This document shows positions 18,625 to 51,532 of a stretch of DNA of 64,000 nt, in pieces; position 1 is the first letter of the stretch, and every line of letters begins with the position of its first letter. The position numbers were made by a program, and so were the translations under genes. Location: positions 224,833,275 through 224,897,274 of the forward strand of contig NC_133649.1 of assembly GCF_009905375.1 (NCBI RefSeq), written 5' to 3'. The notes beneath the pieces are model-generated. The model ran no database searches and was not told the origin of the DNA. It was given only the letters and a program-made list of their open reading frames with translations. This DNA is from Apium graveolens (Eukaryota; Streptophyta; Magnoliopsida; Apiales; Apiaceae).

Positions 18625-18637
18625 GTCTCCCCTCCTT
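18625..18637 (-). other. Polypurine tract of Gypsy-1
   Basis: The minus strand reads AAGGAGGGGAGAC directly before the TGTAAT start of the 3' LTR. The preceding GGAATCCTTTT block is shared with the other two Gypsy elements. Confidence 0.85.
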
Positions 18638-18639
18638 AA

Positions 18640-22400: not shown

Positions 22401-22499
22401 CCCAAAAACAATTGACTGGACTTAAATCAGTTTATTCTAACCTCTGGCTCCGTGCCTTTCTTGGTCTTTCACCAACGGGTGGTCTCTCTCTTGGGAGGG
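19411..22499. other. Gypsy-1 interior, no gene recognised
   Basis: By position this 3.1 kb should hold integrase core, RNase H, reverse transcriptase and protease. I find no FIDD/YVDD, DSGA or DAS motif in a sensible frame on either strand. The sequence is pyrimidine-rich on the plus strand and full of stops. It is either extremely decayed or replaced sequence. Confidence 0.5.
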
Positions 22500-22605
22500 T
22501 AAGTGACAAAAACAGTTCTTTTGAGATTCGTCAATCATTTAGAATCTCAAATGATTCCTATATTTCCTTTAGCCAGGCTCTTGCCTCGGCTGGGTCAGCT
22601 TGTTC
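22500..22605 (-). pseudogene. gag: Gypsy-1 gag relic
   Basis: The minus strand gives QADPAEARAWLKEI, a stop, then ESFEILND. This matches the DPxEAxxWLKEIEKxFxxL block at the start of Ty3/Gypsy capsid (in Gypsy-2, DPIKATTWLKEIEKAFVLV). The single stop replaces the expected lysine. Flanking sequence (22606-23348) shows no further domain. Confidence 0.7.
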
Positions 22606-23348
22606 CATGGAACTCTGAGAGCTTAGCGACTTAAAGGTCCTGAAAGAATTTCACACCACATTGTTTCCTCAAGGTGGTGGTTGGGAATAAAATATAAGTT
22701 CTGTTTAGACAGGTTCATGGATTTCCGTATAGGAGTACCGTCTCGGGTCTCCTTATCTCGCTCGACTTCTGCTGTCTTAGTCTAAATATTTCTTCCTACT
22801 CCCCATAATTGGGGTCATCTTTTAATTTAAAATCTTCATTTTCCACTTTATTATATTCCGGATTCTTTATATCTTAATCGCGACCTCCCTGATTATCACA
22901 TTCAAGGTTTGCCCCTAATCTTATTCCTTGTGGGGGCATATTACTTGGAAAATTTTGAGAATCTCCGGATATTTGTCTTACTTACTTTGCTTAAATCTTC
23001 CCCTCGTTTAGTCCTTGCACGATTGCAAATTATGAATTCTCAAGTTCGATAAACTTCATGACACTGTCTTAAGTGTTAATAGAGCAATTAACAATGTGAT
23101 TTTATCACAAACAAACTGATCTGAACTGAAATTAACGAATATATACATAACCCTTTGCTCGGGGGTACAACAACTGAACATATTAAAGAGGATTACATCA
23201 TATGAACTTATCGCTCCTATCCCAAAAGTACTACCATAGATAGTCATCTCGTCATTAAAACTAATCATTCATTACTTAGGCTAATCCTCCGAAAGCGTGC
23301 TACATGAAACCCTTGTTTGATTGCTCTGGCTCTGCACACTACCATGGA
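22606..23348. other. Spacer between Gypsy-1 gag relic and upstream ORF, no gene recognised
   Basis: About 740 bases without a convincing frame. By analogy with the 530-base spacer of Gypsy-2 it is likely untranslated leader plus the lost N-terminus of gag. Confidence 0.4.
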
Positions 23349-24113
23349 TTAAGAGATGCGAGCACGCACGACATCCCTAACCTGCTCCATCACAGAGGTG
23401 ATGAGGTCTAAGATAGTCGCAAGTAGAGCTAGATCAACCTGACCCTCAAGATGGCCTCTAGCTGTAACACGGGTGGTAGCCTCAATCCTTTCCATGCTAT
23501 ACGATAATCCTGCCGGAAGTATCCCACCCTCAATCCTTGGTGCAGTAAGTCGATCCAACAGATCACTCCTAACATTCCGGGCCTCTGACAGGCCACCCAA
23601 AGTCATATGATAATCAGCGATAAGAGAAGCCTGAGTGGTAGCATCTAGCAGTCCATGGGGTGCAGGTGGTGCAGACCCAGGAGATCCAAATGGATAACCA
23701 AGCACGGTATCAGGTGACAATGGTGCAGGGGATAAATGTGGCATTTCCTCAGTATGTGCTGGGCTCTGTACAGGGGATGGGACAGGAATTGGTGGAACCT
23801 CATGGATGTCTACAAGAGCCTCTGGAAGAGGGTCTGATACTGGTATAATTGGGGTCGTGGAAGGCCCCACTCCATCTGCCCTCATTAACCTTTGTGCCCT
23901 TGGTAACTCTTCATCCTCCAGTGCCACCCTCGCGGCCATTCTTGCTCTGGTAGTCGCCCTGACTACTGTCATCTGTTCCTCAGCGGTCCTCTCTTCATTC
24001 TCATCAGGATCCTCCATGAGATCCTCCTCAGCCACAATCCTTTCCGGAATAACATCCTCAACCGCAACATTCTCTATCTGAACCTCATCCGGTCCCTCAT
24101 TAGGGTACTCCAT
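23349..24113 (-). CDS. Gypsy-1 proline-rich ORF upstream of gag, function unknown
   Basis: The ATG at 24113 gives 254 residues ending in TAA. The frame stays open upstream for about 27 codons to a TAG, so the start is not settled; a GTG at 24122 is also possible. The N-terminal third is strongly acidic (EDLMEDPDENEERTAEE) with an arginine/alanine stretch. The middle (about residues 85-150) is proline-rich (VPPIPVPSPVQSP). The last 90 residues look helical (YSMERIEATTRVTARGHLEG, then a hydrophobic heptad-like DLALLATILDLITSVMEQV). It has no zinc knuckle, protease or RT motif. It lies between PBS and gag on the sense strand, where Gypsy-2 has an ORF of similar length and layout. It has no internal stop although pol is destroyed. 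A role in RNA or particle handling is only a guess. Confidence 0.6.
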   Translation of the reverse strand: MEYPNEGPDEVQIENVAVEDVIPERIVAEEDLMEDPDENEERTAEEQMTVVRATTRARMAARVALEDEELPRAQRLMRADGVGPSTTPIIPVSDPLPEALVDIHEVPPIPVPSPVQSPAHTEEMPHLSPAPLSPDTVLGYPFGSPGSAPPAPHGLLDATTQASLIADYHMTLGGLSEARNVRSDLLDRLTAPRIEGGILPAGLSYSMERIEATTRVTARGHLEGQVDLALLATILDLITSVMEQVRDVVRARIS

Positions 24114-24368
24114 CGGATTCACAATTTGATCTCCAACTTGTAATAAAACATCCTCATGCTGATGCTCCTGAACCTCAAGGTTCAGTGCTCCGCTGCCCTA
24201 TACGAGAACGAACTATGTTACTATCACGATACTTATAAGGGTTCCCGTAAGGGTTTTATCTGTCAGTGCTATGTTAGGTAGCCCGACTATGAACTTGGCA
24301 AGAGTTCTTATTATCTTAGTGAACTTATTATCTTAACGCCCCATCATCTCTGAGGTTTATAACGCTTA
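24114..24368 (-). other. Gypsy-1 leader between PBS and upstream ORF
   Basis: About 255 bases with a TAG in the ORF frame near 24200. Apart from the open extension of the ORF described above I see nothing specific. Confidence 0.4.
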
Positions 24369-24380
24369 GCTCTGATACCA
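24369..24380 (-). promoter_or_regulatory. Primer binding site of Gypsy-1 (tRNA-iMet)
   Basis: The minus strand reads TGGTATCAGAGC, four bases from the 5' LTR end at 24385. Confidence 0.95.
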
Positions 24381-24384
24381 TTTC

Positions 24385-27300
24385 TGTAACACCCCCAGAT
24401 CCGGGGTCGGGGATCCGGGTCGTCACGAGTTCCATTTCCCTTAATAACACCCAATCTTAATAACTACTCAACTCCTCTGTACTGTGACCCCACAATAAAC
24501 ACACACACCACACGTTATAGTCTCAGAGATGAACATCCAAAAAATAACCACAAGTCATTTTATTCCATAATTATCTGCCAATACATCTTAAAAGGTTTTC
24601 TGAATAAATTTACATTTCTTTGCCATTATTACAATTCATAAATATAAATAAATCTGGTACATCAAAAGTTGAAAGCCTAGCCTATTGGTAGTTCCTACCT
24701 CGGCTACGGCGGCATCAATGCTTCTAGAAAACTGCGGAACGTCTCCTACTCGCTTGCGAATCGGGAGCTTGGTTCTGTTCATCTTTTCTATCTGTTGTTG
24801 TGTGATGAAGAAATAAAGCAAGGGTGAGCAGCAAGCCCACCAAAATAATATGTATAATGATTTACAATATATGAGCCTACTCATAATACTCATGAAAGTC
24901 TTGGTCAAAAGAAATGAACCAAGTTTGATATCTTAATGCGATGAAGTCGCAAAATATTCAGTATATATACATATATACTTTTCAAAATATTGGAAGTCCT
25001 CTTCCATGCATAATATACACAAAGTCCCAGTGTATAACTGTATAAAAAAAAATATCGTTGCAAGGTGATCTCATATATCTAACCTTGTCTCAACGTTTTT
25101 CTGAAAATCTTTGTCATTCATAAGACAATTATTAATTAGATATAAGTTTAAAAGATGAAGTTACAAGATACCCCAATATACTTATATCTTTCCCAAATAC
25201 TACTTGAACTACCACTGTTCAAGTTATAATTAGCTTCAAAAGTTCATCACATAGATGAGACTACAAGACAAGATTTGAATAGATTCAATCTTTGAATATC
25301 ATTATAAATAATGAAGCTACGAGATACTTCATTAAGTCCCGATATATAAATATATTCATATATATCTCCCATACATTTCCTGAAAACCTCTGTCATGTAA
25401 AGTATGAACAGAGTTACAATATCCAATGAATTTGGAAGGAAAAGAATTTTGGCATAAACCAGATATCTTGCTGATCAGGCAAAGATACCAATAAGTAACC
25501 TTTTCTACTAGTAGATGGATGAATCCCCCACCGGTCATCACCCTGGCCACATAAGGACCTTGTGCTGGACCGCCACCCGGCCTCTTACGCGTTGATGGAC
25601 TGCCACCCAGCCACTTACACTTTGATAGACCGTACCCCGGCCTGTCGCTTATGCCGACTCAATTAGATGGGCTTACTTCCCGAACATTGGGCAAGTAATC
25701 AATTCATTTATCAAAACAGCAACCTTGTTGCGAATATAAAATACACCATAGAGCCGGATCCCTCAGGTTTTGAGCGAGTATTTAAATCCCCTTAAAAGGA
25801 AGATCTAAAATATAAAAATGAGTTTTGGGATCCGCTCTAACTTTTAAAAATCATTTTGAAGACTCGAAAACACTTTAAAGAGTGTTTGGAGTAAAACTGA
25901 TTTAATGAAATAAATCAGTCCCGATATATTAGAAAATATCTGAATATTATTATTTAAATAATATTCTCATAAAGAATTATCTTTATAAAAATAATTGAAG
26001 TAGAAGTATTAAAACTTATACTTGAAATAAACATTAAATAACCAAAGATATACTTATATTAAAGTATTATCTTTATTTGAATAATCGAAATTAAGTTTGA
26101 TTATTAACACTTTATTCTCTAATGAAATAAAGAATATATTTCAGTAATAAGCGGAGTCATAATACCTCGAATAAATATTATAAATAATATTCATTAAATA
26201 AAATAAAGGAGTCATACATCCTCAAATGAATATCCAAGTAATATTCACTAATAAGATAAACTGAGTCATAAGCCCTCGAATGAATATTCAAATAATATTC
26301 AAATAATAGAATAAAGGTATCGAATAAACCTTATTCGATCCATAGTTTTAAAAACTATATCCATATATATATATAAATAAATATATATATATATAATATA
26401 CTCGGGAACATCGACTCCCGGTTTAGAAATATGTTCACCTTTTATCCCCTATACTAAGGGTATACGCAACTACTTGCTTATTTCTAGCATAGGTATTATG
26501 CAACTATAAGCATTGAAATCAACAGATAGATAACCAGATTACGAAACAGACATGCATATATACCATATTAGCCTGCTCCAATATATCGCAAAATTTGCTA
26601 ATAACAATCATGCAATATCACAAGATAATGCATATACATATATTTACATCACAACAACAGTATAACGGGTAGAAAACTTGCCTGAGCGACTTGGGGTGAT
26701 AAAAGGCTCGGGACGAGTCTGGTAACCTATAAACAACAAGTAAGTTGGAATTAAACCAAAATCACTTGTAAATCTATACTTTAACTAACTTAGACTCTAA
26801 CGCTTGATTTGCGCTCACTGATTTGCTTAAGTCACTCGGGTACCCTCGGCTCCACCATTTTTAATAATTTAACCTTTACGAGTTTTAAAGCGATTCCTTC
26901 GCGAGTGTCTTACCAACTGCCTAACACACTTACCATAAATGTTTCATAAATTAATTAACCCTTTTTGGTCTTTAACCTATGTTTCAAGTAAGGCGAGGGA
27001 AAAAGTTTCGTTCGCGAAACGCCGTTACTTGAAACGGTCGTTTCTCCTAAACCATGCATCGGAATCGAACGAACTACATATCAAAACGAAGCTCGTAACA
27101 TGAGCTATCTAAACATGGCAGTGGTCATATTCTAGCAGGGGGTTCTCGGGTCCTAATGCCATGCACAAAAACAGTCCAAAGAAAATCGGACGTTACGACG
27201 GCTATGTTTACGCGATTTCCAAATTTTAAACCTTTCAAAACCAACCACAAACCAACCTCAAATCCAACATACAACCAACACCCATCCTTATCACATCATA

Positions 27301-28475
27301 ACAATCCCAACCAATTCAATTTAATCATTCATACTTATGCCTAAACTTAACTTTAATCATACTTAAGTTCTTTTAAATCAAAACCACAACAATTACCATT
27401 CCATTTCACTACCATTCCAAATCCCAAACTCTAAATCATAACAACAAGCTACAATATCATCCTACTAATCAAAATCATCTTATAATATATAGGAATCTAG
27501 GGTTTGGAGATGGTATACCTTCCTTGAAGTGGTGGGAGGAGCTAGGAAGCCTTAAGAAGCTTTGAGAAGTCTTAAGAATGCTTGGATCTTCAAGAAAAAC
27601 AAGAAAAATTTCAAGTTAAAAACTTGAAAACACTATTCATTGTCTTCTTCTTTGATTAAATGAAGAAGATTGAGAAGGAATTAATGGCTTAAACTCATGA
27701 TATAGTCCTAACTAAGCATGAAGATGATTAGGGAATTATCTTACCAATTTAGGAGGCTTGGATCTTGAGTTTTGAAAAATCTTGCCTTTAAAATGCTAAA
27801 AAGCCGAGAGCTCTTCAAGAACAAGCCTTGGTTGCTTTTTGATTTTTGATGAAAATGATTTTTACTTGGCTTGGTTGACTTGTTTTTGTGTTTGCTTTAG
27901 TCAATTACCTTCTTGCCCTTGAATTTGTGTGGTTCTCTTTCAACCACACCTCCTTCCTTCCCTTGTCATGCTTATGTCATCCTCATGATGTCATCCTCCC
28001 TTCCTTGTCCTCTTTCTATTGGTTGGATGACATCATTCCCACTAATCCCTTTGATTAGCTTTTAATTGTTTGCCTAATGACCGCTGATCTGTTATACGGT
28101 TCGCTTAACTTTCGTTCTCGTTTATCGTTTGAGGGATCATACCCGGGATCTTATTACTTAGGTTCCCTTAACCTTTCTCAATATATTGTATTCCTTATAT
28201 GATCCTCTCTTATAATCCTTTAATTTAAATCCTTTTTATCCTGTTATCTTATACTCAATTCTCTCCGTATCTTGTGGATTTCCGGGAAAAATCAAAGTGT
28301 TCGGAATTGGATTCTGACGATCTTTACATACACTTATATACCACATAGAGTACTAATAATATCCCATAAGATCAATAACAGAACCCCTACATAGCGTGGC
28401 ATGAAAAGTTTTCTCGTTCAGCAAAAACACTATTCATAAGGGTTTCAAAATTTCTCAAAAATTGGGGTTATTACA
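24385..28475 (-). repeat. Gypsy-1 5' LTR (4091 bp)
   Basis: Pair of 14533-18624. The donor-like motif CAGGCAAGTT is intact here (plus 26675-26684) but mutated in the 3' LTR. A second donor-like AAG|GTATAC lies at 27513-27518 (minus). Open frames inside are shared by both LTRs only because the LTRs are copies. Confidence 0.97.
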
Positions 28476-29716: not shown

Positions 29717-29721
29717 CAAGG
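29717..29721. repeat. Target site duplication of Gypsy-3, left copy
   Basis: CAAGG, repeated at 57199-57203. The reading frame of the interrupted SIRE-A ORF is restored when one copy is removed. Confidence 0.93.
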
Positions 29722-32700
29722 TGTAAGAACCCAAATTTTTGACATCAGTAAAAGACCTTTATGAATAGTAATATAATAACTCGAATTTTTGAGACCTTGT
29801 AAAATACTTAATGAATAGTAACCCTGATAGACGGGAAAAACTTTTTAGCCCACACTATGTTGTGCATGGGAAATTGAGTTTAGGAGTTGATAACATGATT
29901 ATACGTACCAAATAAGTGTATGTAAACGCCATTAATTTTTGAAGAAAACGAACTTTGAAGAATGACCGTATCTATGAACCACTGAGTATTACGGGAATCA
30001 CAATATAATTACGAATTTAAAACTCTACGGATTTATATCCAAGAAAGATACTTCAAAACATAAAGAATAAATACGAAAGGATTTACGCCGTGAACCGTTT
30101 ACGAGAAATCATTACAAAAATGATTAAGCGACCGAACAAATGCGTAAACGATTAAATAAATGTATCGCACTAACTAACCATGGTAGAAAAGTAACCATGG
30201 TTACTTTATCAAATAGTAAGCTAGAGATGTAGGAATGATCATTCAAGGCTAAGAATAGTGAGCTAAAACCTAAAAGGCCAACTAGGTTAGATTGTAACCT
30301 AGGAATGCTAGCTAGAATTATCCAAAGATTTGCCAACATAAATCTATCCTAGGACATATACTAGAGAATAAACAATCAACCACAAGCAATCTTCCAAGAG
30401 AAGCATTCAAGAAGCAACAAACTCTCTCTCTCTCACACAAAATACCATGCTGATTTTCAAGAACACCATGGAGAGAAAAATTCATATATCATGTTCTACT
30501 CATTCAAAAATCACCAAATTTTTACCAAACCTCTCTCATATCATGGGTAAGTCACGCACCAAATTTCATGCCCATCCATGAAGGCCTCAATTTTATAAAA
30601 ATGTTTGAAGTTGAGGGTGAATAGTAACTCCGAAAATCACTAACTTGTTTTCTTGATTTTTTATGAAAGTTTAAGGCTCCTAAAGCTAGACCAAGACTTC
30701 ATCAAGGATATTAGGACTTTATTAAGTATTAACAAGCTTCAAGTAAGGTATAAACATTCATCCAAACTTTGTTTAAGCTTTAAGTTTCAAGAAAAGTAAG
30801 GATCTTGGATATAAGTATTGTTTTGATGATTGATTTGATATTATCTTGATGTTTAGTTAACTAGTTTAAGGTTGATGATTGTTGCCTCAAGAACATGATG
30901 TTCTTGAGAGGAGTTAGTTTTGAAATGATGATTTGATGATTGTTGGTGGTGGTATAATGATTTAAGACGTAAACGAAACTCGAATCGTAATCGTAACCTC
31001 GTTAAAACGAACAAAACTAAAATTAAGTTTCTGCAGAAGTTTCCGAATATATACACTGTAATTTCTTGAAAAGTGAGACTTGATTATGATAAAAAATGTT
31101 ATGAAGATCGTTGAGGCACTTGAATCGCTTGATTTCAATTTACGGATCAAAAGTTATGACCGTTTTAGTAAAAGGGATTTACGCGACAAAACTGCTATAA
31201 ATTACGAACTTTGTAAATATAAATGATCAACTTAAAAATATTTAAAAATCATGAAATTTTTACATAGAGTAATAACTAGAGTTTTTTAACTTCAATAAAA
31301 ATTTCAAGTAAAAATGTAAATTTTTCAATTTTATAAAAATATCGGAGACGAGGTCGCGCGAAGTACGAACGTCAAAAACAACCCCCTGTTAGGAAACTGC
31401 CACTTCGGGATTTTCACCCTGTTATCAGAAAACTATTTTCAAATTATGTGTTCTAAATTTTGTCTAGATTTCTCATGTAAAAACGGTGCATCAATTGAGT
31501 TAACGGTTTGAGAGATATCAATTGTTTAGTGAAAGCGGTTTGAATAATAAAACTCTGTAGTTGACCGAACTTTTGAAATGCGTTTCACCTAATTAAATTC
31601 ATTTTATCAAAATGAAACTTTTAGGATAAATATTAAAAGAACTCAAGAAGCTCCTCGAGGTGGTTTCGTTTTAAAATATTAAATTTACGATTTATTAAAA
31701 ATAATAGAGTGTGAGTCGCGTAATAGTAATATCCGGTAAAGTCAAATCTAGAAGACCACTTTGACCGTCCGTTTCGACCAAGGAGTGATACTTATTTCGA
31801 GTCGGTCGAACAATGAAAATTATGAAGTATTGAAATTATTAGAAATATAAGTTCGTGATGAGAGTAGGAAAACTGATTAAGATTATGATGTTTGTTGATT
31901 AGAAAGCCCGGAACGAGAGGAAGTCGGGAAACATATCTTGGACTCCAGGCAAGTTTTCAAACCCTACATTTTAAAATTGTTGTGTTGTGTTTGTTTTCAA
32001 ATAAATGCTATATATACATGATGTGATATTACGATATATTACGAATTATGATATATAATACCGTACTATATATTACTGATTTTGGTATATGATTATTACC
32101 GAATTTCAATCAATAACGCTAGAGAGTAGCGTTGTATATTTTAGACCAAGGGTCGGTCATTATAATTTTATGAAAACCCGGAAGTATTCCGGAGGTGTTT
32201 TATTTAAGAATGTTAACGCTATAGTAGAGCGTGATGTATAAGTTGTAAGACCGAGAGTCGATCAGTTTTTATGAAGTATAAACCCGTGAATCATCCCGAA
32301 GATATTTTGGACGATCAATAGTCCGCACATATTTTATTCCAAGGGACTCGATGTCCACTTGCGAAGTATTAAGTACCTCGAATTTTATTTAAAAATGATT
32401 TCTAAATATCGTATTCCCTCAACTCTATTTAATTACCCAAGCAATGGATATTATTTCAGATATTCATTTAAGAAGGGAGAAGTATTCTCCAACGTTTTAT
32501 TTTATTTTAAAACCAATTATTTTATATTCATTAAAGATTAATATAATTACTTCAACATAAATTAGTTGAGGAATATTATTTAAAATATTCTTTTAAAGAA
32601 GAACTATTCGAGGTTTAATTATTTAATAATTATTATTTAATTATTCAGTATTTATTAAATGATTTAATATCATTTAAAAATTATAAAACCTATTTTAAAA

Positions 32701-33892
32701 TATTTTCAGAGTTTCAGAAAATCATACTAATACTTTCAGATCATCGAAGAATATTATCTCGACAAACCTTGTATATTTTGACTATAGTTTCAAAAGAAAC
32801 TCCCCCTTATTTAGTTATCTGTTGACAACGGTTAACTCACATCCTTAGTACTTCCTCCGAACATTCTCAGAAGTACATATATATACATACAAATCAAAGT
32901 GTACCTATCAACAAGCAATATGCTTGGGGAACAATATAAGTTCCAGATATATGATGGGATCCTTACAAGGACAAGGAGGGGTAGACTCTAGTACTTCATG
33001 GACTGGGGAGACTACCAATTTACTACCACATGAGAAGGTATCTTATATACTGACGAACATGTGGAGTATGCGTACCTGAGAGGGATGGACGCAAAACCGT
33101 GTCTTGAGAGGGATAGACACGAAGTGTGTACCTGAGAGGGATGTACACGGAAAAGGCCCGAATGCGGTCAGGGTGATAACCGATAATAAAAAGGGAATCG
33201 TCCTTCTACTAGTAGGAAAGGTTACTATTTCCGTAGTACGACTGATCATCGTATACGGTGGCTCCAGTGAATGTCCTATTCTTCCAATTGGAATTGTGAT
33301 GCAATACCGTAACCCAAGCCTAGGTGTTTGGTTTACTATTAAGGTATTTGCAGGATAATAAGTCCACAAAAGAATTGTTTTCGAAAAAAGGTGTGTATCA
33401 CCGAGGAAAACTATTTTTGAATAAACATATTTATCATATATGGAATTAAACTTGAATTTCTCATACAGTCTTTTCATAATGTACATTATTATGGCTGAGC
33501 ATTATTGCTCACTCTTGCTTTCTTTAAATGTCACAACACAACAGATAACCAGTATGCTGGAGTGGGACTTAATCGCTTACAGTCATGCGGAGAATCCCTG
33601 GATGCTTTGTCTCAGGTGGGCCAGAGTATCAGATAGGTATAAGATATCAGTCGTAATTATTGTAACTTCATGTAGAGGTTACAAATAATTGTTTGAGATC
33701 CTGTAAAGTACATTTGAGTTTTAATAACAGATGATACTTGTTGTACATCGTTTCTAAGGCTATAACTTGCGAGTGTGTGAGATTGGGGTCTGTGATATGG
33801 AATTATCGGATTATTGAGTTAATACAGCTTACACATGATTAAAGGATCGCGTGACGACCCAGATTCCTGACCCCAGATTTGTGGGCGTTACA
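29722..33892 (+). repeat. Gypsy-3 5' LTR (4171 bp)
   Basis: Begins TGTAAGAACCC and ends GGGCGTTACA. It matches 52781-57198 except for point changes and a 247-bp organelle-derived insertion present only in the right copy. It carries donor-like GGTAAGT (30546-30552), AAGGTATA (30745-30752) and CAGGCAAGTTT (31946-31956), and a hairpin array (32912-33148). Confidence 0.96.
32912..33148 (+). other. Hairpin array in the Gypsy-3 LTR
   Basis: Inverted repeats in order: 32912-32926 (CAAGCA / TGCTTG), 32928-32944 (GGAAC / GTTCC) and 33026-33064 (CCACATG / CATGTGG). Then follow three tandem hairpins: 33070-33092 (GCGT / ACGC), 33099-33120 (GTGTCT / AGACAC) and 33126-33148 (GTGTAC / GTACAC). The last three share the loop TGAGAGGGAT while their stems differ with compensation. 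The right LTR repeats the array, ending at 56454. Confidence 0.8.
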
Positions 33893-33896
33893 AAAA

Positions 33897-33908
33897 TGGT
33901 ATCAGAGC
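33897..33908 (+). promoter_or_regulatory. Primer binding site of Gypsy-3 (tRNA-iMet)
   Basis: TGGTATCAGAGC on the plus strand, four bases after the LTR end. It defines the plus orientation. Confidence 0.95.
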
Positions 33909-36900
33909 AATAAGTTATAGTACTCAGAGACGAGAGTGTTAGGAGTCTGTCTAGATGCGAGATTTCTTAGGAGCTCATATAGAGTTCATCACTGGATTAC
34001 CGGATGTAGCCCTAATGTGTAGGTTATGATAAATGTATATTTGAGGTATTAAAGCATGACTAATAGGCTCATTGGAGATTATCAGAATAATGAGAAGAAA
34101 AATTAGAATCATATATGATTTGGTAATGATGTGGCTGTAGAACTCGGAGCTGAGTCTCCAGGGCATTTGGGGTAAAGACGGTATTATCAACATCAAATGT
34201 TCATTTGGACAACACGAGCGTTGTTACTCGTAGTTCTGTATAGGTTGCCCATGAGGGGGCATCACATGTGAGAACCATGAAGTCTAATTATTAATATACA
34301 GTTGAGGTTATTGACTCGAACTAGTTGAAGGTGTCATTTTACCAATGAGGATGTGAATATCATATTAATCACGAATTCACCAGAGATAGTGTCCAATATA
34401 CCATTAAGGATATTTTCTATTAAGGAAGATTTTAATGTAATATAAGAATGTTATCGTAAGACGACTACACTACATGATATTATTAGTGTGCTTAACATGT
34501 AAGGTTATGATGGTTTAGCTCAGAGATCAAGATCATCGAGAATTGATGGCCTGTCTATAATTGAATGGCGTAAGATTACAACGAGCGATAGTTCAATCTT
34601 AGAACCTTCTAAAAGGATAGATCAATGAGTCTAGAGCGGAATTCTTTGGTAGAAATGATGTCAGAGACTATGTATATAAACTCGTAGACCTCTAATATAT
34701 TCGATAACGTATGTTTAATTCACACACACATGCCACTGAAATTATGGAATGTATTGAGATCCCTAAGAGATCTCTTTGATCTGTTCCCGGGGGAACTTGC
34801 CACTTATAGTTAATAACAGATGCGTGTAGCTAGTAACTATCGACTTAACAGATGTTTTTGGAATATTTCTGAGAAAGGTCTTCGAGGTAAAATACCGAAA
34901 TGACAGATATACGTGTGAAAGTCAAGTTAGTAAGCGATTTTAAAATGATGTTGAAAGAGAAACTATTTGAAACATGGAATTACGAAGAAGAAGAGGTGAG
35001 ATCATTCTCAGATGGATAATGACGAGAGTTAGGATAATCAGTGAAATATTTTGGCACCTACTCACTGTCACGTTACTCCCTCCAAACTGTTGATCATTCG
35101 TATTGCCTTGATAAGTCATATCAGGCAATCCTTTTCGTTCCCTACTTTGAACTTCTAATGTGACCATCTTGAATAGTCTTTCTCCGCATCAGGACTTGTT
35201 CAATTCTTTTAGTTAATCAATGAACTTTCATTCATAGATTATGATCTTCTTGTTCGGCTCAGAGCTATTTATACTTTATTTCAATTATCCAAGGAATTTT
35301 TTTCCATAAATTTCCTCAATTCATCGACGAATATTCATACTGAATATCTTCATTTGATTCATCTTTCATACTTACGCTTTTCAGACGAGATCGTAAATAT
35401 CTAATAAATTGTTAAAAATATGGATGATCTAATATCCATGGATTCCTCGGGAATCCTTTTATTCTAATCGGGATGAAATTATATATTGAACATTGAAATC
35501 ATAGTAAGGGTATCAATTTGATATTGGTATTCCGAATTCAATTCTATTTAAGAATCTGATAAAGTATGTGAACAAGGGCACCTCTGAGTGTACCATTTTA
35601 TTGGCAAGAAATATTTGATGAGAGGCTATCTATTGTTCCGATGCCAAGACCACTCGATTCAGAGTTATAATTATCTTTCTCGGCCCAAATTTAAAAACTC
35701 TTTATTTCAAAATCGTCATCCAGGTAGCCACAAATTTCTTCAGTGGTTACGATGTTGAGATTTTTTTCAAACAAACTGAAATATGCTTAGTTGCATATGT
35801 TTTCATGAACGGCTAGTTATTGTCCTAACTAGTCAAAATTTTAATTAATACAATGAAAACCTAGATAATCGTCCTGGCTAATTACTATGTGCCAAACCAA
35901 TTGAGCTGGCCATTTTCTTATCCGGTTGATAATATTGCTTGATATGGACTAGTTATTATTTTGCTAGTTCCACTTCCAATCAAATTTTTATTATTCAATA
36001 GTGCATTATATATGCAAAAATTAATTGTTGATGAAATTTTCAAAGAATGATTTAATTGAGACCTAACTAGGTCGCCCACTCAAACGAGAATTCATATTCA
36101 GTTTTATGAAATATTTTGTTCATGAAATGTTATATTCTTTCATTTATATAATGAATATCCAATTAAAATCATAAATTGATTGAAGGACAATATACTTCCT
36201 TATTTGTTAATCATTGAGTAAAATTCCTTATTTCAAAATAGCATCTCTTTGAAACCTCAATGGTTAACCTTTGGTTGAGGATGTTATTCGATATTTATTT
36301 CATTATTCGAAAAGAGAAGTATTCTTTCATTGGGAAAATCTTACAAGTATCATTCGTATGATGTTATTATTCAGCAATCATTGCTTTCAATGGATATTTT
36401 CTATAATATCACAATACAAAATTCTAAGGACATGGAAGGATAATCCTTATTGTATTCTTTCTTCCAAGTTATAAATATTTTGAGTGTTGCGACTCTTTTA
36501 TTCAGAGCTCATTATTTATTCAGATGTTAGATTTTGAAATCTTGTTAAGATTGTCTAAATTTCACCGATATCGTGAAAATCATTTTTTTCAAGGCTAATT
36601 GCCTTCCGAACAAAGAGAGGTATAGTTGAGAACCGATTGTTGAATATGAGACTGAAAGCTCAGTGCTATGTTGGTGCAATCGGAGCATCGTAATGAGTAA
36701 GTTGTTTTAAAAAGGGAATAACATGTTTAGTTATTATCATAAGAATCTTTAACATGGTTTTAGAAAAACGATAATAGAGATACAAACGTGGTTAGTGAGG
36801 TACGCTTCTATGAAATATTATTGGGATAGGTACTAATGAATTCGAGAAAGACCAAACATGTATGAATTCGAGGAATAAGATTTTAAAAAGTAAAGGTAAG

Positions 36901-37079
36901 ATTAGTAACAACCCTGTGTTAGCAATACTCGATGATAAGAAGAGGATTTTGTGTGAAGTATAATAATATGTCTATACGGCTTAAAAACCGTGACACAAGG
37001 TGTTCTAATAATAATCTAGAATAATCGCGATAATGTTCGCACTGAAAGGGATAAAGAGTTTAACTTATGAGGAATTTTG
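33909..37079 (+). other. Gypsy-3 interior, no gene recognised
   Basis: By position this is leader, gag, protease and RT. I find no capsid, zinc-knuckle, DSGA or catalytic RT motif; every frame is broken within about 100 codons. Confidence 0.5.
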
Positions 37080-37200
37080 GATATTTTTTTACACTGAACA
37101 CGAGATAGAGGTTATAGTCAAATTGATCAAGGGCTATGATTGATAAATATATTATCATCAAGGAAAGGCCAATGTGGTGGCCGACACTTTAAGTATAAGA
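37080..37200 (+). pseudogene. pol: Gypsy-3 RNase H relic
   Basis: Plus-strand translation gives LIKGYD, two stops, then [16 protein letters not shown] (about 37143-37191). This is the conserved end of Ty3/Gypsy RNase H ([24 protein letters not shown] in Gypsy-2, here split by the two stops). The stops show it is inactive. It confirms superfamily and plus orientation. Confidence 0.8.
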
Positions 37201-38480
37201 AGATAGATTGAGGATAACAAATTTCAGAACAACTGATGAGAAGGATCACATGAATGAATCTTGGAGTTGAGATAATGTAAAGAGAACCCTTTATTACGTA
37301 ACCGGAAGAATTAATGAAGCATAAAAACTTAAGAGGATATTAGTCATGACCTAATATGAAAATGGATGTCATTGACATGGTTGAAAATGAAAACGGAATG
37401 ATGAGGATTAAAATTTTGGCGATTGCGGCCTGTAAATGACCCGAATGGGAGTAAGAGTTTATTATAATAAATTCTGAAGGAGGACTATCAAGAACCAAGT
37501 AAGCCGTCGTGCAATTTTAGGATTTTTAGTAATAGGTTAAATAAGACTGCTTATTTTATTATGAAAATGATAGATCTCCGCTCTATAAAATTATTATGAA
37601 CGCGGAAGAGATAATTGATGATAGAGAGACCCCGTGATATCGTGCCACGCAAGGACCCAAGATATTTCGCGAGAAGGGACTAACAGAGGCACGACTTAGA
37701 GTTCTCAAATCGACAAGTAGAACGAGAGGACTATCCTGGCCATTGAAGATACGTCTAGTTGCTTACCTTTTATTTGGAACGGTTAGGGGAATCACCTATC
37801 ATTGACAGAAAATTCGTGTAGATGTACTTACCACGTGAGCATATGAAAAATAGTATCTGATATCCCTTACGAAGGACAATGTGGAAGAATGAAGGATGCC
37901 ATTGTCAGAGCTGATAGAAGGCAAAGAAGATCGTACACGCCCTATAAAGGCCACTGGTAGCAGGTACCAATGAACGTGAATATGTCTAAGGCGCTAGAGA
38001 GAATAACAAGTACGACCCAGAAGGTATCATAGTACTATAGATATTATACAGGGAATGATTAAAGAAGTCCGATCGATGACGGAAGCTGAACGTTCCACGA
38101 TCTTAAAACGTGTCAATCAATTACGTATGAAATGGTGCTTCCTTCAAGATGGAAATAGGACGATGATGTGCTTTACATTACTACAGGAAGAAATGTTTAA
38201 TCTGACGCTAAGCATGTAACAGGAGACGAGTGTGTAGAAATGTGACAAGAACTTCTTACATAAAATAATAGACAGAGATGATGCGCAAAAATGGGAAAAC
38301 GTTAAGGAACGAAACTCTAGCACTAGTAGGATCGATGGAGGGGGAAACGAATAAGTTGAAGGATTATTCCAAATACTAGAAGATGCGCTAATCGTCCATA
38401 TTATCGATTTTTAAGGGAAATGAAGTGACTAGTTGACATTAATCAAAATACCGACAATAACGAGTTATCATGCGGGCATT
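37201..38480 (+). pseudogene. pol: Gypsy-3 integrase region, heavily decayed
   Basis: Between the RNase H relic and the Gypsy-2 insertion only the last bases are readable: LVDI and NNELSCGHW correspond to the LVEFSYNNSYHASIG block before the integrase glutamate helix. The catalytic residues cannot be identified. The region stops at the Gypsy-2 target duplication and resumes at 52129. Confidence 0.55.
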
Positions 38481-38485
38481 GGAAC
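38481..38485. repeat. Target site duplication of Gypsy-2, left copy
   Basis: GGAAC, repeated at 52124-52128. Confidence 0.93.
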
Positions 38486-39120
38486 TGTAACGCCCTCCAG
38501 ACCCGGGGTATAAGTCTGGGGGTTACGAGCTAATCACCAAACCTGTATAGGCTTATTAATGAATAATAAAGAAATGAAATTAAACCCCTTTCTCACTAAC
38601 CAGGACCTTTTTAGGTTGAAGTATGAAAACAAGAACCACTAACTATTTTATTACAAAGCAACACTTAAAATCTCACAAACTCTCTTTATTACAAACCATC
38701 GTCTAATTTATTTTTAAACTAAGTTCAGTTTTTATTCAAACACACGTACTATCTATCAACACTCCACCTGCTTGGGCAACTCAAAGATTTCTTCCTGAAT
38801 TGGGATCAACACCTTGGGTATGAGAGGATCTCGAGGCTTGACCCACTTCTTTACCACTCGTGTCCTGATACGTTTCATATTCTTTCTTAACTGAAAACAA
38901 TAAGGTGAATAACAACAAAAAGGGGTGAGCCAAAATTGCTCAACAAGTCCACAAAATATAAACAGTGCTAAAGCATTATAATTGAATCCGTAACCCAGGT
39001 ATATCTGCAAAGATATAACCTCATAAGAATCGAAAGAAGGCCATTACTGGCGAATATAAACGAACTAAACTGGACTCAAGTTCACAACTATACCCTGTTG
39101 ATCAGTCAGGATACAATGCA

Positions 39121-39223
39121 GATCTATATCTCACTATATAGATCCCGTCGGGCACCCAGGCACTACGACCCGTTTCAAGGATCCGGTTATGTCCCGATCC
39201 TTAGGATTAAGTAGACTTAATCC
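39121..39223. other. Hairpin cluster in the Gypsy-2 LTR
   Basis: Three consecutive inverted repeats: GATCTATAT / ATATAGATC (9 bp, 6-base loop), AAGGATC / GATCCTT (7 bp) and GGATTAAG / CTTAATCC (8 bp, 4-base loop). All three are preserved in the other LTR at 48947-49049. Confidence 0.8.
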
Positions 39224-40729
39224 CAAAAAGTAGTGTTATCCAGTCCCTGGAATAGCAACCGGAACAATCGGTATGCTTTGGTATATTCTAATCACCAGAA
39301 TATATCAATAATTGTGAGTAACAATTGGAATATGAATAATAAATTCAAATGAAAAGAATAATTCAAGAATCGAACTGAGATATAAATAAAGAAATTAAAG
39401 GAATACAAGCGTAATAAGAATTTGAAATGAATATTACTATTCTGAAATTAGAATAGGGAAGAAACTTGCCTTCTGCGCGACTTACTGCAATTAAATCACT
39501 TATGTCTATCCCTTACTTGACCTTCCTTGCTGGCTTAGCTTCTGTTAGCAAAATAGACTGATTAAGTCATCTTGTACTTTAATTTGCATCTTGAATTGAC
39601 TTCATTTCGTTCCTATTATCTACCCATGCGCTTATAACTGACTCTTATATTACATATAAGCAAGTAAGACTCGATTAATCACATAATACACATAAGCACA
39701 TAAGCACATAATCATTTTTATAGTTAAAATAATTTTTAGAATCAAAATCGACTCGCTGATTGTTCCGTTGATCACCTTCTACTTCATTTTCCATTTTTTT
39801 CGGAATTTTTCGGACTCGTCTCGGCGCGTATTTCGACTGATAATCAAGCAATCAATAAAGTCAACTAATTTCAAGAAGAAATTAGGTCTTCATATTATTT
39901 TTAATAAAAAGAATTCATTTTTCTGAGTTAAATGGCTTTCCTTTCACTCGAATCGGGTTAACGGTTGAATTATTATCAATTAAACACTTATAATTCAATT
40001 TATTATTCAATATAAATAATTATTATAACCTTTTAAATCCTAAAATAATTTTTTTAAATAATTATTTAAGAAAATCAAAGTCAAAAATAATTTTTTTTTA
40101 TACTTTTAGGAGTTAAAACGAAGAAGTTATGATTTATTGAAAATTATGTGATTAATTATCGAAATAATTAATCACTTCTTAAATATTTAATAAATACATA
40201 ACAAATAAATAATTAATAATTAATTATTTAATAATTTAAAATAATTAATCCCTAATTATTAGGATTAATCACAATTTATTATTACAATTTATACGATTCA
40301 GTCGATTATCGGTATTTAATTATACGATACGAATAATTATTACGGTATTCTTCGAATAATTATCGCTCGAATAATAATTTTTAATTATCGAATCACTACT
40401 CTTATAGATATGAGTTACACGTAATATTCACTAATTATCGGATTATTAATCGTATTATTTAATCCTTATTTATTAATTAATTACCTAATTATTAATTAAT
40501 TACCTAATTATTAATCAATTAGATAACTAATAAATAATTAGATAAATAATTAAGTAATTAAATAAATAATTAAATTCAAATTTCTAAATTAATAAAATAA
40601 TTCAGACATTATTTACAAAACTATTTTAAATTTTTAAATCTAATTTTTATTTGATTTTTATAATTATTAAAAACTGATTTTAATATACTAAAATATAATT
40701 AATTAATAAAATTTGCAGAAACAGAATTC

Positions 40730-41165
40730 TGGAAGTCAGGTTGGGAATTCTAGGATCAAACTCGGGTCAACAATCTCAGGAAAACGGGTTGGAACCCGGG
40801 TTTTCGGGTCGCTGAAGAACAGCCGCCGTGCTGCCCAGAAATCGGCGCCAGCGAGCTGTTTCCGGCGAGCCCAATTCGAACGTACAGGTCATTGGTTCTG
40901 CAAGATTTTTGTTCTGTTCAATTCCATGTGGCTGCAGCAACATAACCCTGCCGTTCTCCTTCAGCTCCGTCACTTCAGTCGCCTTCTCCGGCCAAAAACG
41001 TAACAACGCCGGCGAGCTCGATGTCCAAGTCCGGCGAACTCCAGTCGGGGTCAAAACACCACCATTCAAATCGATTTTTATATGAATTTCACTCAGAATC
41101 TCACCAGCAACACAACCAAACCAACAACACAACCTGATAATCACTAGAACCAATTTTCTGATCAA
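40730..41165. other. GC-rich block with open frames inside the Gypsy-2 LTR
   Basis: The composition changes sharply from AT-rich to GC-rich here. A 129-codon minus-strand frame (41165-40776) and a 96-codon plus-strand frame (40713-41003) are open in both LTR copies, but neither starts with ATG and neither resembles a known protein to me. In sense orientation the block lies about 530-750 bases after the TATA box, in the transcribed leader. It could be a captured sequence or a structural leader element. Confidence 0.5.
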
Positions 41166-42292
41166 ACCAAGAAATTTTTCCGGCCAAACTCCGTTTTGCT
41201 TCGTTTGTACACAGAAAATTACAATCTATAGCTTAAAATAAAGCTTAGAGTATACACAATCAAACCCCTTTAACCAAAATAACCTCAGAATCATGTAACT
41301 TCAAAAATGAATCAAAATAAAATGATAAAAACTTGAAACTAAGAATTACTATCTAGAACATAACTCCGATCAATTAAATAGCACAAATCAATTGTAAATA
41401 AGTACAGGAAACTATACCAAGCATTAAAATCAACCCAGAACCCCAGAATCAAAAACGCCTAAATCAAACATAAACCCTAAAAATATGAATTAAAAATCAA
41501 CGTAATAAAACACAAAATTGATGATAGAATTGGAAAGTAGGGATCAAAAGCTTTCGATTGAGTACTCACATGTTTGATTTGGAGATCAGAATCACTGTCA
41601 AATCTTTGCTTGAAATCAAGAACTCAAGAACCCTAATTTCTGAATTTGGGAATTAATTTGCAGAATTATGAATTAATTAATAATAATCAGGGTATTTATA
41701 GTATGAAAAATAATACTCCTAAATAAAATTAAGGGGCTAATTATACATTTAATAAAAATATTTGGCCCTAATTTTTATAATTTTTGGGTATTAAAATTTA
41801 ATTTATAAATATTTTATATATACAATATATATACCAAAAATTCCCAAAAATTGTGAATAATTCAAAAATACAAAGAAATGGTATAAATAAAAGTCCTATA
41901 ATTTTATAAAAATAAAAATGTGATTTTTGTGGGGTTTTTAACACCCAATGGGGCCCGGAAAAGTCATTTTTCGTAAAACGAGAAAATTTATAAAATATCT
42001 AGATGTTCAGAATATTGCGATTGTAAAAGCCGTTTGATGAAAAATAAGGCCCATTATTTTATTTGAAATACTGGCTTTAAAATCATTATTTGGGTTGCAA
42101 AGCGTTTCAAATGAAACCTTTGAATACGATATAAAACATCTGAAAAATACCTTAAAAATACAGAAATGATACAGAATATACGTAGCATGTAACAATTAGG
42201 GTTTAACAGATAATCACACATAACTGACATATTAATACACATATTTTATTATAAATATGATATAATACAAAGTAAATTTCCCGGTCGTTACA

Positions 42293-42305
42293 TTCTCCCC
42301 CCTTA
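42293..42305 (-). other. Polypurine tract of Gypsy-2
   Basis: The minus strand reads AAGGGGGGAGAA directly before TGTAACGACC, the start of the 3' LTR. Confidence 0.85.
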
Positions 42306-42329
42306 ATAGGATTCCGTCCTCAGAATCTT

Positions 42330-43159
42330 CTATGAAAACAAATGAGGGTATTTCTCTAACATTTTACTTTCAAGTTCCCAGGTTGATTCTTCAACCATAG
42401 GATTTCTCCACAACACTCGCACTAAATATACAGACTTATTTCTCAATACTTTCTCTCGCCGATCTAAAATTCTTACCGGCTGCTCTACAAAAGACAAATC
42501 AGGTTGGATATCTATCGGTTCATACTCTATTACATGCCTAGAATCAGGATTATATTGCTTAAGCATTGACACATGAAACACATTGTGAATATGTTGCATA
42601 TGAGGCGGTAAAGCTAATTCGTATGCAAGCTTTCCTACTTTCTTCAAAATTTCAAATGGTCCGACATATCGTGGCTTCAATTTACCCTTATTGCTAAATC
42701 TAGTCAATCCTTTCCATGGCGATATTTTAAGTAATACGTGTTCTCCTTCCTGGTAGTCCATATCCTTCCGTGCTTGGTCTGCGTATTTGCGTTGCCTGTT
42801 TTACGCTACATCGAGTCATTTTCGAATAAGTTCAATCTTTTCCTTTGTTTGCTGAATTAATTCTGGACCCAAAATTTTGCGTTCTCCAACTTCATCCCAG
42901 TGTACTGGTGATCTGCATTTTCTCCCATATAGTGCTTCATACAGTGGCATTCCAATGCTGGCGTGATAGCTGTTATTATAAGAAAATTCCACCAGAGGTA
43001 AATGTTCATCCCAGCTGCCTTCAAAATCGATCGCACAAACTCGTAACATGTCTTCAATCATTTGGATAGTTCTTTCACTTTGCCCGTCGGTTTGCGGATG
43101 ATAAGCGGTACTCATGTTTAATTTCGTTCCAAGGCATTCTTGAAATTGTCTCCAAAATC
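42330..43159 (-). pseudogene. pol: Gypsy-2 integrase end and chromodomain-like tail
   Basis: The frame from 43115 starts at the block MSTAYHPQTDGQSERTIQ, which holds the catalytic glutamate of the DDE core, and runs to a TGA at 42818-42816. A second in-frame stop (TAA, about 42803-42801) follows before the open part 42761-42330. That part contains the GPY-type block (PRYVGPFEILKKVGKLAYEL) and a C-terminal VLWRNPMVEESTWELESKM stretch. In chromoviruses this last segment corresponds to the chromodomain that directs integration to heterochromatin; here it looks like the degenerate class lacking some aromatic residues. The stop at 42330 lies 25 bases from the polypurine tract. Confidence 0.85.
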
Positions 43160-44815
43160 TTGAATTGGAACTCCATGTCGCATCACAATTTCTTTAAGAT
43201 ACATGTGCACTAATTTGTCGAGCGAAAATCTTTCGTTAATTGGTAGAAAATGTGCCGACTTCGTAAGTCTGTCAATGATTACCCGTATCGCATCATGATT
43301 TGCTCTAGTCCTCGGTAGTCCTACCACAAAATCCATCGCTAAATGTTCCCATTTCCATTCGGGAATGTCTAACGGTTGCAATAACCCACTCGGACGTTGA
43401 TGTTCCGCTTTAACTCGCTGGCATGTGTAGCATTTACTCACCCATTCTGCTATTTCCTTTTTCATGTTCGGCCACCAGAAGTTTTCTTTCAGATCGCGAT
43501 ACATTTTTGTACTTCCTGGATGAATGGAATACTTCGAATTGTGCGCATCTCGCATTATTTCTTCTTTTAATTCTACCACATTAGGGATCCAGATTCTCGA
43601 CGCAAAGCATAAAATTCCTTCACTATCTTTCTGAGTTGTGATCTCTTCTCCCGTTAGGTCGTCATCTTGACTCATCACTTCATCTTGACAGCGGCGAATC
43701 TTCTCTAACAATTCCGGTTGGAAAGTCATAGTGTAGATAGCTTCTGCAGATTCATTGGGAACACGAATCTCGATTTCCAATTTGTCGAATTCCTTGGCCA
43801 ATTCTTCGCATGAAGTTAACCAATTCAATCTTTCTTTCCTGCTCAACGCATCCGCTACAACATTTGCTTTTCCTGGATGATAACTGATTGTAACATCGTA
43901 ATCCTTTATCAATTCTAGCCATCGACGTTGTCGCATGTTCAGTTCCTTTTGTGTAAAGATATACTTCAGACTTTTATGATCCGTGTAGATTTCGCATCTT
44001 TCACCGTAGAGATAATGTCTCCAAAGCTTCAATGCAAATACAATCGCTGCCAATTCCAGATCATGCGTAGGATATTTCTGTTCATGAGGTTTAAGTTGTC
44101 TCAAAGCATATGCAATGACATTACCGTGTTGCATCAATACACATCCTAGCCCGCGATACGAAGCGTCACTGTAAATGACGAAATTTCCTTGCTCGTCTGG
44201 CAATACCAATACTGGTGCGGTCACCAACCGATTCTTTAACTCTTGAAAACTTTCTTCACATTTATCATTCCATTCAAACTTTTCATTTTTTCGAGTTAAC
44301 TTAGTCAACGGTGTTGCTATCTTTGCAAAATCTTTGACAAATCTTCGATAATATCCTGCCAATCCCAAGAAACTTCGAACTTCTGTCGGCGTCTTTGGTC
44401 TTTCCCAATTCAACACAGCTTCAATCTTTGCTGGATCAACTTGGATGCCTTCTCTACTGATGATATGCCCTAGAAATTGTACTTCCCTTAACCAGAATTC
44501 ACATTTTGAGAATTTTGCGTATAATTGTTCTTTCCTCAGGATTTCCAAAACTATCCTCAAGTGTTCTGCATGCTCTTCTTCTGTCTCGGAGTAAATCAAA
44601 ATGTCATCAATGAATACAATTACAAACTTGTCCAAATATTTCTTGAATATCCTGTTCATCAAATCCATGAATGCAGCTGGCGCGTTTGTCAAACTGAATG
44701 CCATTACAAGAAACTCGTAATGTCCATATCTCATACGAAATGCAGTCTTTGGAATATCTTCAGTTTTAATCTTCAATTGATGATAACCTGGCGTAAATCT
44801 ATCTTCAAAAACCAT
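43160..44815 (-). pseudogene. pol: Gypsy-2 reverse transcriptase, RNase H and integrase N-terminus/core
   Basis: Long minus-strand frame (the full ORF is 565 residues to 43118). The apparent first codon is inside RT. RT shows [15 protein letters not shown], then the FIDD catalytic motif (residues 68-71, FIDDILIYS). In the usual PFG motif of this family an AFS is seen. RNase H shows [14 protein letters not shown] (about 215-228) and ends with [16 protein letters not shown]. Integrase has the zinc-binding H425, H432, C462 and C465 and the first core aspartate (MDFV, D495). After RHGVP (residue 550) the frame changes and the conserved segment with the second catalytic aspartate is absent, so the integrase core is broken. 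A 1-base frameshift near 44795-44810 separates this from the upstream frame. Confidence 0.93.
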
Positions 44816-45621
44816 GCAACTCCTTTTAGCTGGTCGAACAAATCATCGATTCTCGGTAAAGGATACTTGTTCTTGATAGTGAGCTTATTCAATTCCCTAT
44901 AGTCAATGCACAAACGCATGCTGCCATCCTTCTTCTTCACAAATAACACTGGTGCACCCCATGGGGATACACTAGGTCGTATAATACCTCGGTCTAGAAG
45001 ATCTTGCAGTTGCGTTGACAATTCTTTCATTTCAACTGGAGCCATTCGATACAGAGCTTTTGAAACTGGTTCTGTACCTGGTGCTAGATCAATCGTGAAC
45101 TCGATTTCTTGATCTGGCGGTAACCCTGGAAGCTCGTCTGGAAAGACGTCCGAAAATTCACATACAACTGGAATGTCTTCTATTCTAGGACTTCCTTTTT
45201 CAGTATCTAACACGTAAGCTATGTACGCCTCACATCCTTGTCGAAGCAATCGTTTGGTCTGCACTACAGTGAGAAATTTATTCTGCTGCTTTTCGCCCTT
45301 GAATATTACCGTTACATTTTCCGCAGTTCGCAATTCAACTTTCTTATTCGCGCAATCTATCTGAGCCTTATGACATGCTAACCAATCCATTCCCAAAATG
45401 ATATTGAATTCTCCTAGCTTAAAAGGAATTAAATCTACAGAAAAATGATGTCCGGCTACTTCTACATCACACGCAGGACATACTCGATTTACCGGAACTT
45501 GGTCGTCATTCGCTAATTTTATAATTAATGTCTCGCCCAACCATTTAATTTCATAATGTAACTTATCAAGAAATTCTTCAGAAATAAATGAACGGGTAGC
45601 TCCAGAATCAATTAATACTTT
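44796..45621 (-). pseudogene. pol: Gypsy-2 protease and RT N-terminus
   Basis: The frame continues gag after a TAA at 45624-45622. The aspartic protease begins at once with [14 protein letters not shown] (catalytic DSG) and ends near [10 protein letters not shown]. The RT fingers follow: [35 protein letters not shown] and [20 protein letters not shown]. The frame is lost after WFLKIDLR near 44800. Protease would process the gag-pol polyprotein. No independent start is visible, so this part depends on fusion to gag. Confidence 0.92.
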
Positions 45622-46851: not shown

Positions 46852-47384
46852 CTTTTTTTGATAATAAAACAGGTGATATTTATTTAACAGTTTAATAAAA
46901 AATTGACAGTATGTGATGGAAACAATTTATCCTGTATTAATAACATGGTTTATTTAAAGAAAACAATTACTAAATGTAAAAACTAGAAATGTAAACAGTT
47001 AAATAAAATGTTTATTCTTTTTCTTTTCTGTTTCTTTCTTTCTCTCTCTCTTTTTTTATTTTCAACAAGAATTATAGTATAAAAGACTGTAAAGCAATAA
47101 AGTGAAATTAAATGCTGTAAAACTGGAAAGACTGAAATTTAAATAAAAGATATTTGAAAAGTTCAGTTTATATATATATATGTGACACCAGCTTCAGGTG
47201 TAAATGCTTGATACAAAAAGTCTCGGGCTACTGGTCATCACTACGGCTACAAGTCACACTATCGCTACAAGTTAAACTACTACTACAAGTTAAACTACTG
47301 ATACACACATACACACTACTCACTAGGTTATACTATGCTGCCTCTATATACACATGTACTCTGGAGTCATCGTCTCAAACCATC
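46852..47384 (-). other. Spacer between Gypsy-2 upstream ORF and gag
   Basis: About 530 AT-rich bases without a coding frame. On the sense strand it holds a long purine-rich tract (about 47060-47010, mostly A and G). Such tracts can help internal ribosome entry in plants, but that is speculation here. Confidence 0.5.
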
Positions 47385-48119: not shown

Positions 48120-48296
48120 CTGATAATATACCAAAGAAAAGAAAAGGTCACTAAATAATTCTAAGATTTATATTTCCCTATTCTAATCTGGCCTAAATCC
48201 TAATACTATTCTTCCTAACTTGACTGTCCCTATCTTATGTGATCTCCCTATCCTATCTTAGTCCTAATGTTCTTGTTTTCAGGGACCAAACCTACA
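48120..48296 (-). other. Gypsy-2 leader between PBS and first ORF
   Basis: About 180 bases, no gene and no obvious structure. Confidence 0.4.
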
Positions 48297-48308
48297 GCTC
48301 TGATGCCA
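48297..48308 (-). promoter_or_regulatory. Primer binding site of Gypsy-2 (variant tRNA-iMet)
   Basis: The minus strand reads TGGCATCAGAGC, one base different from the usual iMet PBS found in the other elements. It lies three bases from the 5' LTR at 48312. Confidence 0.85.
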
Positions 48309-51524: not shown

Positions 51525-51532
51525 TATTTATA
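51525..51532 (-). promoter_or_regulatory. TATA box of the Gypsy-2 promoter
   Basis: The minus strand reads TATAAATA in the 5' LTR. The same sequence is at 41693-41700 in the 3' LTR. Confidence 0.6.

Follow-up and report, generated by a model that had tools for sequence, protein, structure and literature searches.

The window, a 64,000-nucleotide stretch of Apium graveolens DNA, holds a complete 27-kb Ty3/gypsy-type LTR element, here called E1 (family F1, Table 1). Its LTRs are ~95.5% identical to each other in two aligned pieces (self-BLAST), the target site duplication (TSD) CAAGG flanks it at 29717-29721 and 57199-57203, a primer binding site (PBS), TGGTATCAGAGC, matching initiator tRNA-Met (iMet) is found at 33897, and the polypurine stretch AAGGGGGGAAGA lies immediately 5' of the 3' LTR. 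A second Ty3/gypsy element, E3, which matches Retrotrans_gag, RVT_1, RNase H and Integrase_H2C2, is nested inside E1, and the internal region of E1 minus this insertion comes to ~5.2 kb. No sense ORF longer than 87 aa is present within 33500-38700 of E1, nor any plus-strand ORF of at least 150 aa elsewhere in the element, and tblastn of E1 returned nothing beyond remnants resembling the RNase H part of E3 and its presumed integrase C-terminal piece (4e-6 and 2e-16). Because it lacks a long sense ORF and retains only these remnants, E1 looks like a non-autonomous, LARD-like element. LARD-type elements have LTRs longer than 4 kb, an iMet primer site, a polypurine stretch, a TSD and no coding capacity. 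E1 agrees with them in LTR length, iMet PBS, polypurine stretch and TSD, as well as in the absence of coding capacity.

Another element, E2, has 4.1-kb LTRs that are 99.4% identical and one 282-aa proline-rich ORF (23349-24197) without a Pfam match. It is weakly similar to the gag and the presumed integrase C-terminal piece of E3; the RT pieces of E3 gave no match in E2 at 1e-2, and E2 looks non-autonomous too. E3 carries a 182-aa proline-rich ORF (47619-48167, minus strand), also without a Pfam match, between its primer site and gag, which is the same relative place as that of the 282-aa ORF in E2.

Table 1. Features of E1 and of the related elements in the window (window coordinates).
Feature	Position	Strand	Remarks
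E1, Ty3/gypsy-type LTR element	29722-57198	+	27 kb, complete; PBS, TSD, LTR pair
E1 5' LTR	29722-33892	+	4171 bp; ends TGTAAGAACCC...GGGCGTTACA
E1 3' LTR	52781-57198	+	4418 bp; self-BLAST
TATA-like stretch	32878-32889	+	from sequence
Predicted three-way junction	32904-32958	+	closing stem CCTATCA/TGATGGG around hairpins A and B
Junction closing stem	32904-32910 with 32952-32958	+	fold of window copy
Hairpin A	32912-32926	+	inverted repeat
Hairpin B	32928-32944	+	inverted repeat
Hairpin C	32980-33016	+	covariation, F1 vs F3 lineages
Hairpin D	33026-33064	+	covariation, F1 vs F3 lineages
Array hairpin h1	33069-33093	+	bulged A; loop TGAGAGGGAT
Array hairpin h2	33098-33121	+	clean 7-bp stem; loop TGAGAGGGAT
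Array hairpin h3	33125-33148	+	loop TGAGAGGGAT; minority G-to-T in 3' arm here
Hairpin E	33155-33169	+	GGCC[CGAATGC]GGCC type; common to F2
GGT[GATA]ACC	33172-33181	+	within block matched 30,179 times genome-wide
12-nt palindrome TCTACTAGTAGA	33205-33216	+	final base G in 5' LTR copy
Leader of E1 3' LTR	56209-56521	+	junction 56209-56263, C 56285-56321, D 56331-56369
Array in E1 3' LTR	h1 56374-56398, h2 56403-56426, h3 56430-56453	+
Remaining leader parts, E1 3' LTR	E 56460-56474; palindrome 56510-56521	+	palindrome intact
E2	14533-28475	-
F2 leader of E2	25504-25698	-	bulged hairpin 25673-25698; array hairpins 25627-25643, 25596-25613, 25567-25583
F2 leader of E2, downstream parts	E 25545-25559; palindrome 25504-25515	-
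F2 leader, other E2 LTR	15651-15845	-
E3	38483-52123	-	nested inside E1

The three tandem hairpins with one shared loop that an earlier note had described in the 5' LTR are present (h1-h3). They form a 28-nt tandem whose loops, in the window, share one sequence on differing arms. Hairpin h1 and the usual form of h3 read GYGT-A-CC[loop]GG-ACRC with a bulged A, and the GTACAC arm of h3 in the 5' LTR is a minority form (at that pair, 3 of the 67 F1 copies have C/T and 57 have C/G). The array recurs in the second LTR, as had been claimed; what was taken there for a mismatched stem is actually the family stem with its bulged A, and no stem of that LTR is broken since the bulge is the usual form of h1 and h3. 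The inverted repeats noticed upstream of the array are likewise real (hairpins A to D). Nor is the array missing from the family: three loops were found in 61/67 copies and two in 6/67, where 39 of the 67 copies had been found via the loop pattern and 27 via similarity to the array-containing stretch. A search of 32600-33900 with the Rfam covariance models gave two matches below the gathering score, neither of them on the array.

With the TATA-like stretch upstream and an AATAAA (33419-33430 in the 5' LTR) downstream, the array probably lies in the R region of the E1 transcript. Transcription would start ~25-30 nt 3' of the TATA-like stretch, and the array would then be ~160-245 nt from the RNA 5' end, after hairpins A-D, a putative leader position deduced from that stretch. 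From 32904 onwards the order of elements is the junction (A and B), C, D, h1-h3, E, GGT[GATA]ACC and the palindrome. The junction with A and B appears in the fold of the window copy and of the isolated piece, and of its parts the closing stem and A recur in a 13-row consensus fold (9 F1 and 4 F3 rows). When the 281-nt F1 majority sequence is folded whole, A, C, D, h1 and h2 form, the closing stem and B do not, and part of the h3 loop is paired. The predicted three-way junction is thus the least certain part of the leader. Block 32905-33148 has a mean majority identity of 0.95-0.96 compared with 0.89 upstream and 0.88 downstream, in a set of 22 copies of which 20 were picked by an array pattern. 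The 261-nt leader stretch folds at -80.7 kcal/mol (z = -4.27, 0/200 shuffles equally low). Folding energy was rejected as support, being unspecific: other parts of E1 and neighbouring LTRs show z values that are equal or lower. Another low-energy stretch in the 5' LTR, 33520-33720 (z = -4.35 over 200 nt), overlaps 33504-33572, where MIR473 matches below threshold.

A conserved block directly 3' of the array has 30,179 matches (15,119 + 15,060) in the 3,332,948,439 bases of genome searched, against 0 + 1 matches for a reversed-pattern control. Among the first 100 matches listed each time, all on one contig, we distinguished families F1, F2a, F2b (to which E2 belongs) and several F3 lineages. 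The gag-pol-bearing E3 gave no BLAST match to the conserved leader block. Several strong hairpins, including 14-pair and 11-pair stems, occur at offsets ~3030-3210 of the E3 LTR (48309-52123, minus strand), and no tandem array was seen in that part.

At the position of the F1 array, F2 has three tandem hairpins of its own, whose letters are unrelated to those of F1. Their stems (CTC/GAG, CTG/CAG and CCG/CGG) differ in a compensating manner around a loop AGTGG or GGTGG; the middle pair of the first hairpin is broken in most F2a rows, and we counted this against the structure. The second and third hairpins are present in a 14-row F2 consensus fold; folded singly by minimum energy, the F2b array stretch forms two of its three hairpins and the F2a stretch one. 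Two loci, L114 and L115, have an F2 leader that looks recombinant, the first hairpin being of F2b type and the second and third of F2a type. F3 has a single hairpin, GTGT-ATA-CCC[GAAAT]GGG-ACAC, where F1 has three, and in some F3 loci the D-homologous hairpin is repeated in tandem (three copies in L147, three in L148 and two in L162). The three families have multiplied different leader hairpins. Some of the D-homologous copies in these three loci have broken stems, as does hairpin A in part of the F3 copies (both by eye).

Family labels for the loci counted at hairpin E and the palindrome are rough and the F3 label includes stray matches, and for this reason only the F1 and F2 counts were used. 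Hairpin E pairs GGCC with GGCC in F1, while the F2 arms are GGTC/GACC or GGTC/GGCC; all four pairs are kept in 46 of 61 F1-labelled and 22 of 28 F2-labelled loci. The palindrome reads TCTACTAGTAGA (central CTAG) in 33 of the 61 F1-labelled loci, TCTACATGTAGA (central CATG) in 11, and has 1-2 changes in 17; it is therefore exact in 44 of these 61 loci (most of the 61 were not chosen by the palindrome) and in 27/28 F2 loci, which were found by a pattern that fixes its flanks. The CTAG to CATG swap of two central letters leaves it self-complementary, and self-complementarity kept while letters change is a feature of a dimer initiation site. Such a site would behave so, though one event suffices to explain the switch.

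The earlier note had expected stem covariation among copies of the same family, and this did not hold. The F1 alignment comprised 67 distinct copies, with the two LTRs of the window included as L082 and L083; three duplicate loci (second entries of the window LTRs too) and secondary matches in L064 and L090 were left out, as were L071 and six F3 loci by an overlap rule. No covariation was found within these copies: stem positions vary independently, an outcome that the earlier note had itself named as refuting its reading, and C/A mismatches occur about as often as U/G wobbles. Of the common variants 10/13 keep pairing, which does not differ significantly from rare ones (Fisher P = 0.095) and is also reached by random complementary pairs in 38% of 500 draws. 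Covariation within families was also sought for hairpin C in 57 rows (46 F1 and 11 F3, after 27 stray matches had been dropped from 110 pattern matches and 26 duplicates merged), and was rejected as support because shuffles were beaten on only 1/5 measures, namely cells with double change (6/500). We take F1 copies to be mostly dead and to record decay after insertion, so the within-family test says little.

These within-family results agree with a neutral origin, by which tandem duplication of one hairpin made the array, and methyl-CpG decay on both arms, together with chance, produced what looks like compensation. Three hairpins arise for free from tandem duplication, and therefore only compensated differences between them are informative. 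In the F1 array alone 14/14 pairs are kept (P = 0.0075 in a simulation with equal changes per arm; P = 0.064 when all changes are transitions), and for the F2 array alone P is 0.055 (0.20 with transitions only). The two arrays together give P = 5e-4, or 2.5e-3 when the broken first-hairpin pair of F2a is counted, and with transitions only 0.017 and 0.054, respectively. Covariation evidence for the array itself is thus modest, and the weakness of the array-only simulation is a further point for a neutral origin.

The comparison between families speaks against it. Hairpins C and D were aligned in 16 rows, 5 of the 67 F1 copies and 11 of the 12 F3 loci (L145, from which that part is absent, was left out), and RNAalifold predicted both hairpins, with 4/20 pairs changed on both sides. 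In this structure 92.8% of cells are paired (0/500 shuffles as high), 15 cells show a double change (1/500) and the covariation score is 0.307 (1/500), whereas structures slid along the alignment reach at most 52.8% paired cells and a score of 0.123. Two measures were not above shuffles: the number of pairs with double change (4; 185/500 as high) and of pair types (20; 447/500). Since the 16-row structure came from the tested rows themselves, a structure from the F1 rows alone was also used, and it pairs 233/286 cells (81%) in the 11 F3 rows compared with 32-44% when slid; by eye, D has C/A as its outermost pair in each of these 11 rows. Eight contrasts gave 47/49 pairs kept, including 11 double changes that all preserve pairing (0 broken), against a null mean of 34.5 (transition share 0.67; 0/100,000 draws as high, and 8e-4 with transitions only), a P value that flatters because the contrasts were chosen and their stems hand-aligned, one with a one-base gap, after the sequences had been viewed. 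RNAalifold with column shuffles gave z = -4.2 (1/60 as low) for 13 F1 and F3 rows, in which the array is misaligned, and z = -2.1 (1/100 as low) for 14 of 35 F2 rows. Transversions on both sides of a pair also occur: in the F2 array C-G has flipped to G-C, and hairpin D shows U-A to G-C changes, and methyl-CpG decay fits these poorly. Conservation of the predicted structure of C and D is therefore supported by the aligned sequences. As the C/D tests beat shuffled and slid controls on most measures and more than one family carries an array, we consider a neutral origin unlikely.

The suggestion that selection acts on a folded RNA thus fares better than its within-family test: compensation in the stems appears between families and is lacking among the F1 copies. 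Comparison of the families supports reading the array as the 3' portion of an RNA leader fold common to several related LTR families, and it is quite likely that this fold has been under selection, the plus-strand RNA being presumably the selected molecule. In our preferred explanation, to which we give a probability of about 0.5, the leader fold would have been kept in the replicating lineages of several LTR families while the letters of its stems drifted. The repeated short bulged hairpins with their exposed purine-rich loop would serve as a multivalent site for Gag or nucleocapsid supplied in trans, whose binding would allow non-coding elements to be packaged, and the 12-nt palindrome just 3' of the array would start dimerisation. 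For the packaging role itself, a multivalent Gag-binding signal beside a dimerisation palindrome, we see roughly even odds.

A selected RNA fold could instead serve nuclear export, translation or transcript stability. The leader position would suit such functions, for which the structured leader of plant pararetroviruses and the export elements of retroelements offer parallels; according to a review, cauliflower mosaic virus mRNA is exported via its structured 5' leader (PMC12786077). Translation control would be of little use here, because the scanned stretch holds no sense ORF above 87 aa, and we hold this group of functions to be improbable. Less probable again is an element acting at the DNA level, either a tandem set of protein-binding sites or a cruciform, immediately 3' of the promoter. 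It would account for the invariance of the loop across the three hairpins of the window despite their differing arms, and the region is promoter-proximal, but complementary arms are needless for a binding site, and the cells in which F3 departs from the F1 pair are G-U in 33 cases and A-C in 16, though 11 of the latter are the outer D pair (by eye). Among candidates that were rejected, a coding origin fails on a short frame from hairpin A of F1 that F3, judged by eye, does not retain and that is gapped in older F1 copies; a hammerhead ribozyme on the CTGATGA of F1 hairpin D, which differs in F3 rows, and on the lack of such an Rfam match; a tRNA origin of the F2 hairpins on ARAGORN, which finds 0 tRNA genes in the window; and relatives in viral contigs on 33 stretches with one pattern match each, one of them with the loop twice, which we took as chance.

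Returning to a leader fold with a packaging role, structured leaders and packaging signals are of a known kind. According to excerpts of the sources cited here, mouse mammary tumour virus (MMTV) has a purine loop in a stem-loop that holds the dimerisation site and is bound by Pr77Gag (PMC8096270). The E1 leader resembles this retroviral psi in that exposed, stem-borne purines of the 5' leader adjoin a candidate dimerisation site. It differs in that there are three tandem copies, which likely lie in R, and in that the element is a plant one lacking gag, for which Gag binding is putative. Ty3, of the same superfamily as E1, has RNA that dimerises in vitro via a palindrome near the 5' end (PMC11381356, excerpt). 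Like Ty3 PAL6 and Ty1 PAL (PMC11381356, PMC4974528), the E1 leader has a short palindrome in a structured 5' end; unlike them, its palindrome is 12 nt long, likely in the R region and a candidate for dimerisation. LARDs are said to specify well-conserved RNA structures, and BARE2 is said to keep its dimerisation and packaging signals (PMC7215508, PMC3735527, excerpts). E1 is likewise a non-coding LTR element with a predicted structured RNA, a likeness of description, and differs from LARDs and BARE2 as described there in its tandem hairpin array in R. In longer R regions residual conservation has been linked to stem-loops (PMC3601003, excerpt), which are retroviral and not plant Ty3/gypsy arrays. 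In the titles and abstract openings searched, with most subscription journals outside, no such array was described in the R region of a plant Ty3/gypsy element, and the same sources gave no description of sister families in which one tandem hairpin array stands in the position of another.

A more tentative extension, which we regard as possible though doubtful, is a modular packaging code common to several non-coding LTR families of one plant. In each family a different short hairpin of the leader would have been multiplied independently, in most cases up to three copies, and this multiplication would raise avidity for Gag made elsewhere, beside a palindrome that changes as a unit. If true, a trans-packaging signal would have spread to tens of thousands of LTRs. 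The repeated, positionally fixed hairpins of these related families offer a concrete RNA to probe, and their natural compensating variants offer a test of the leader fold.
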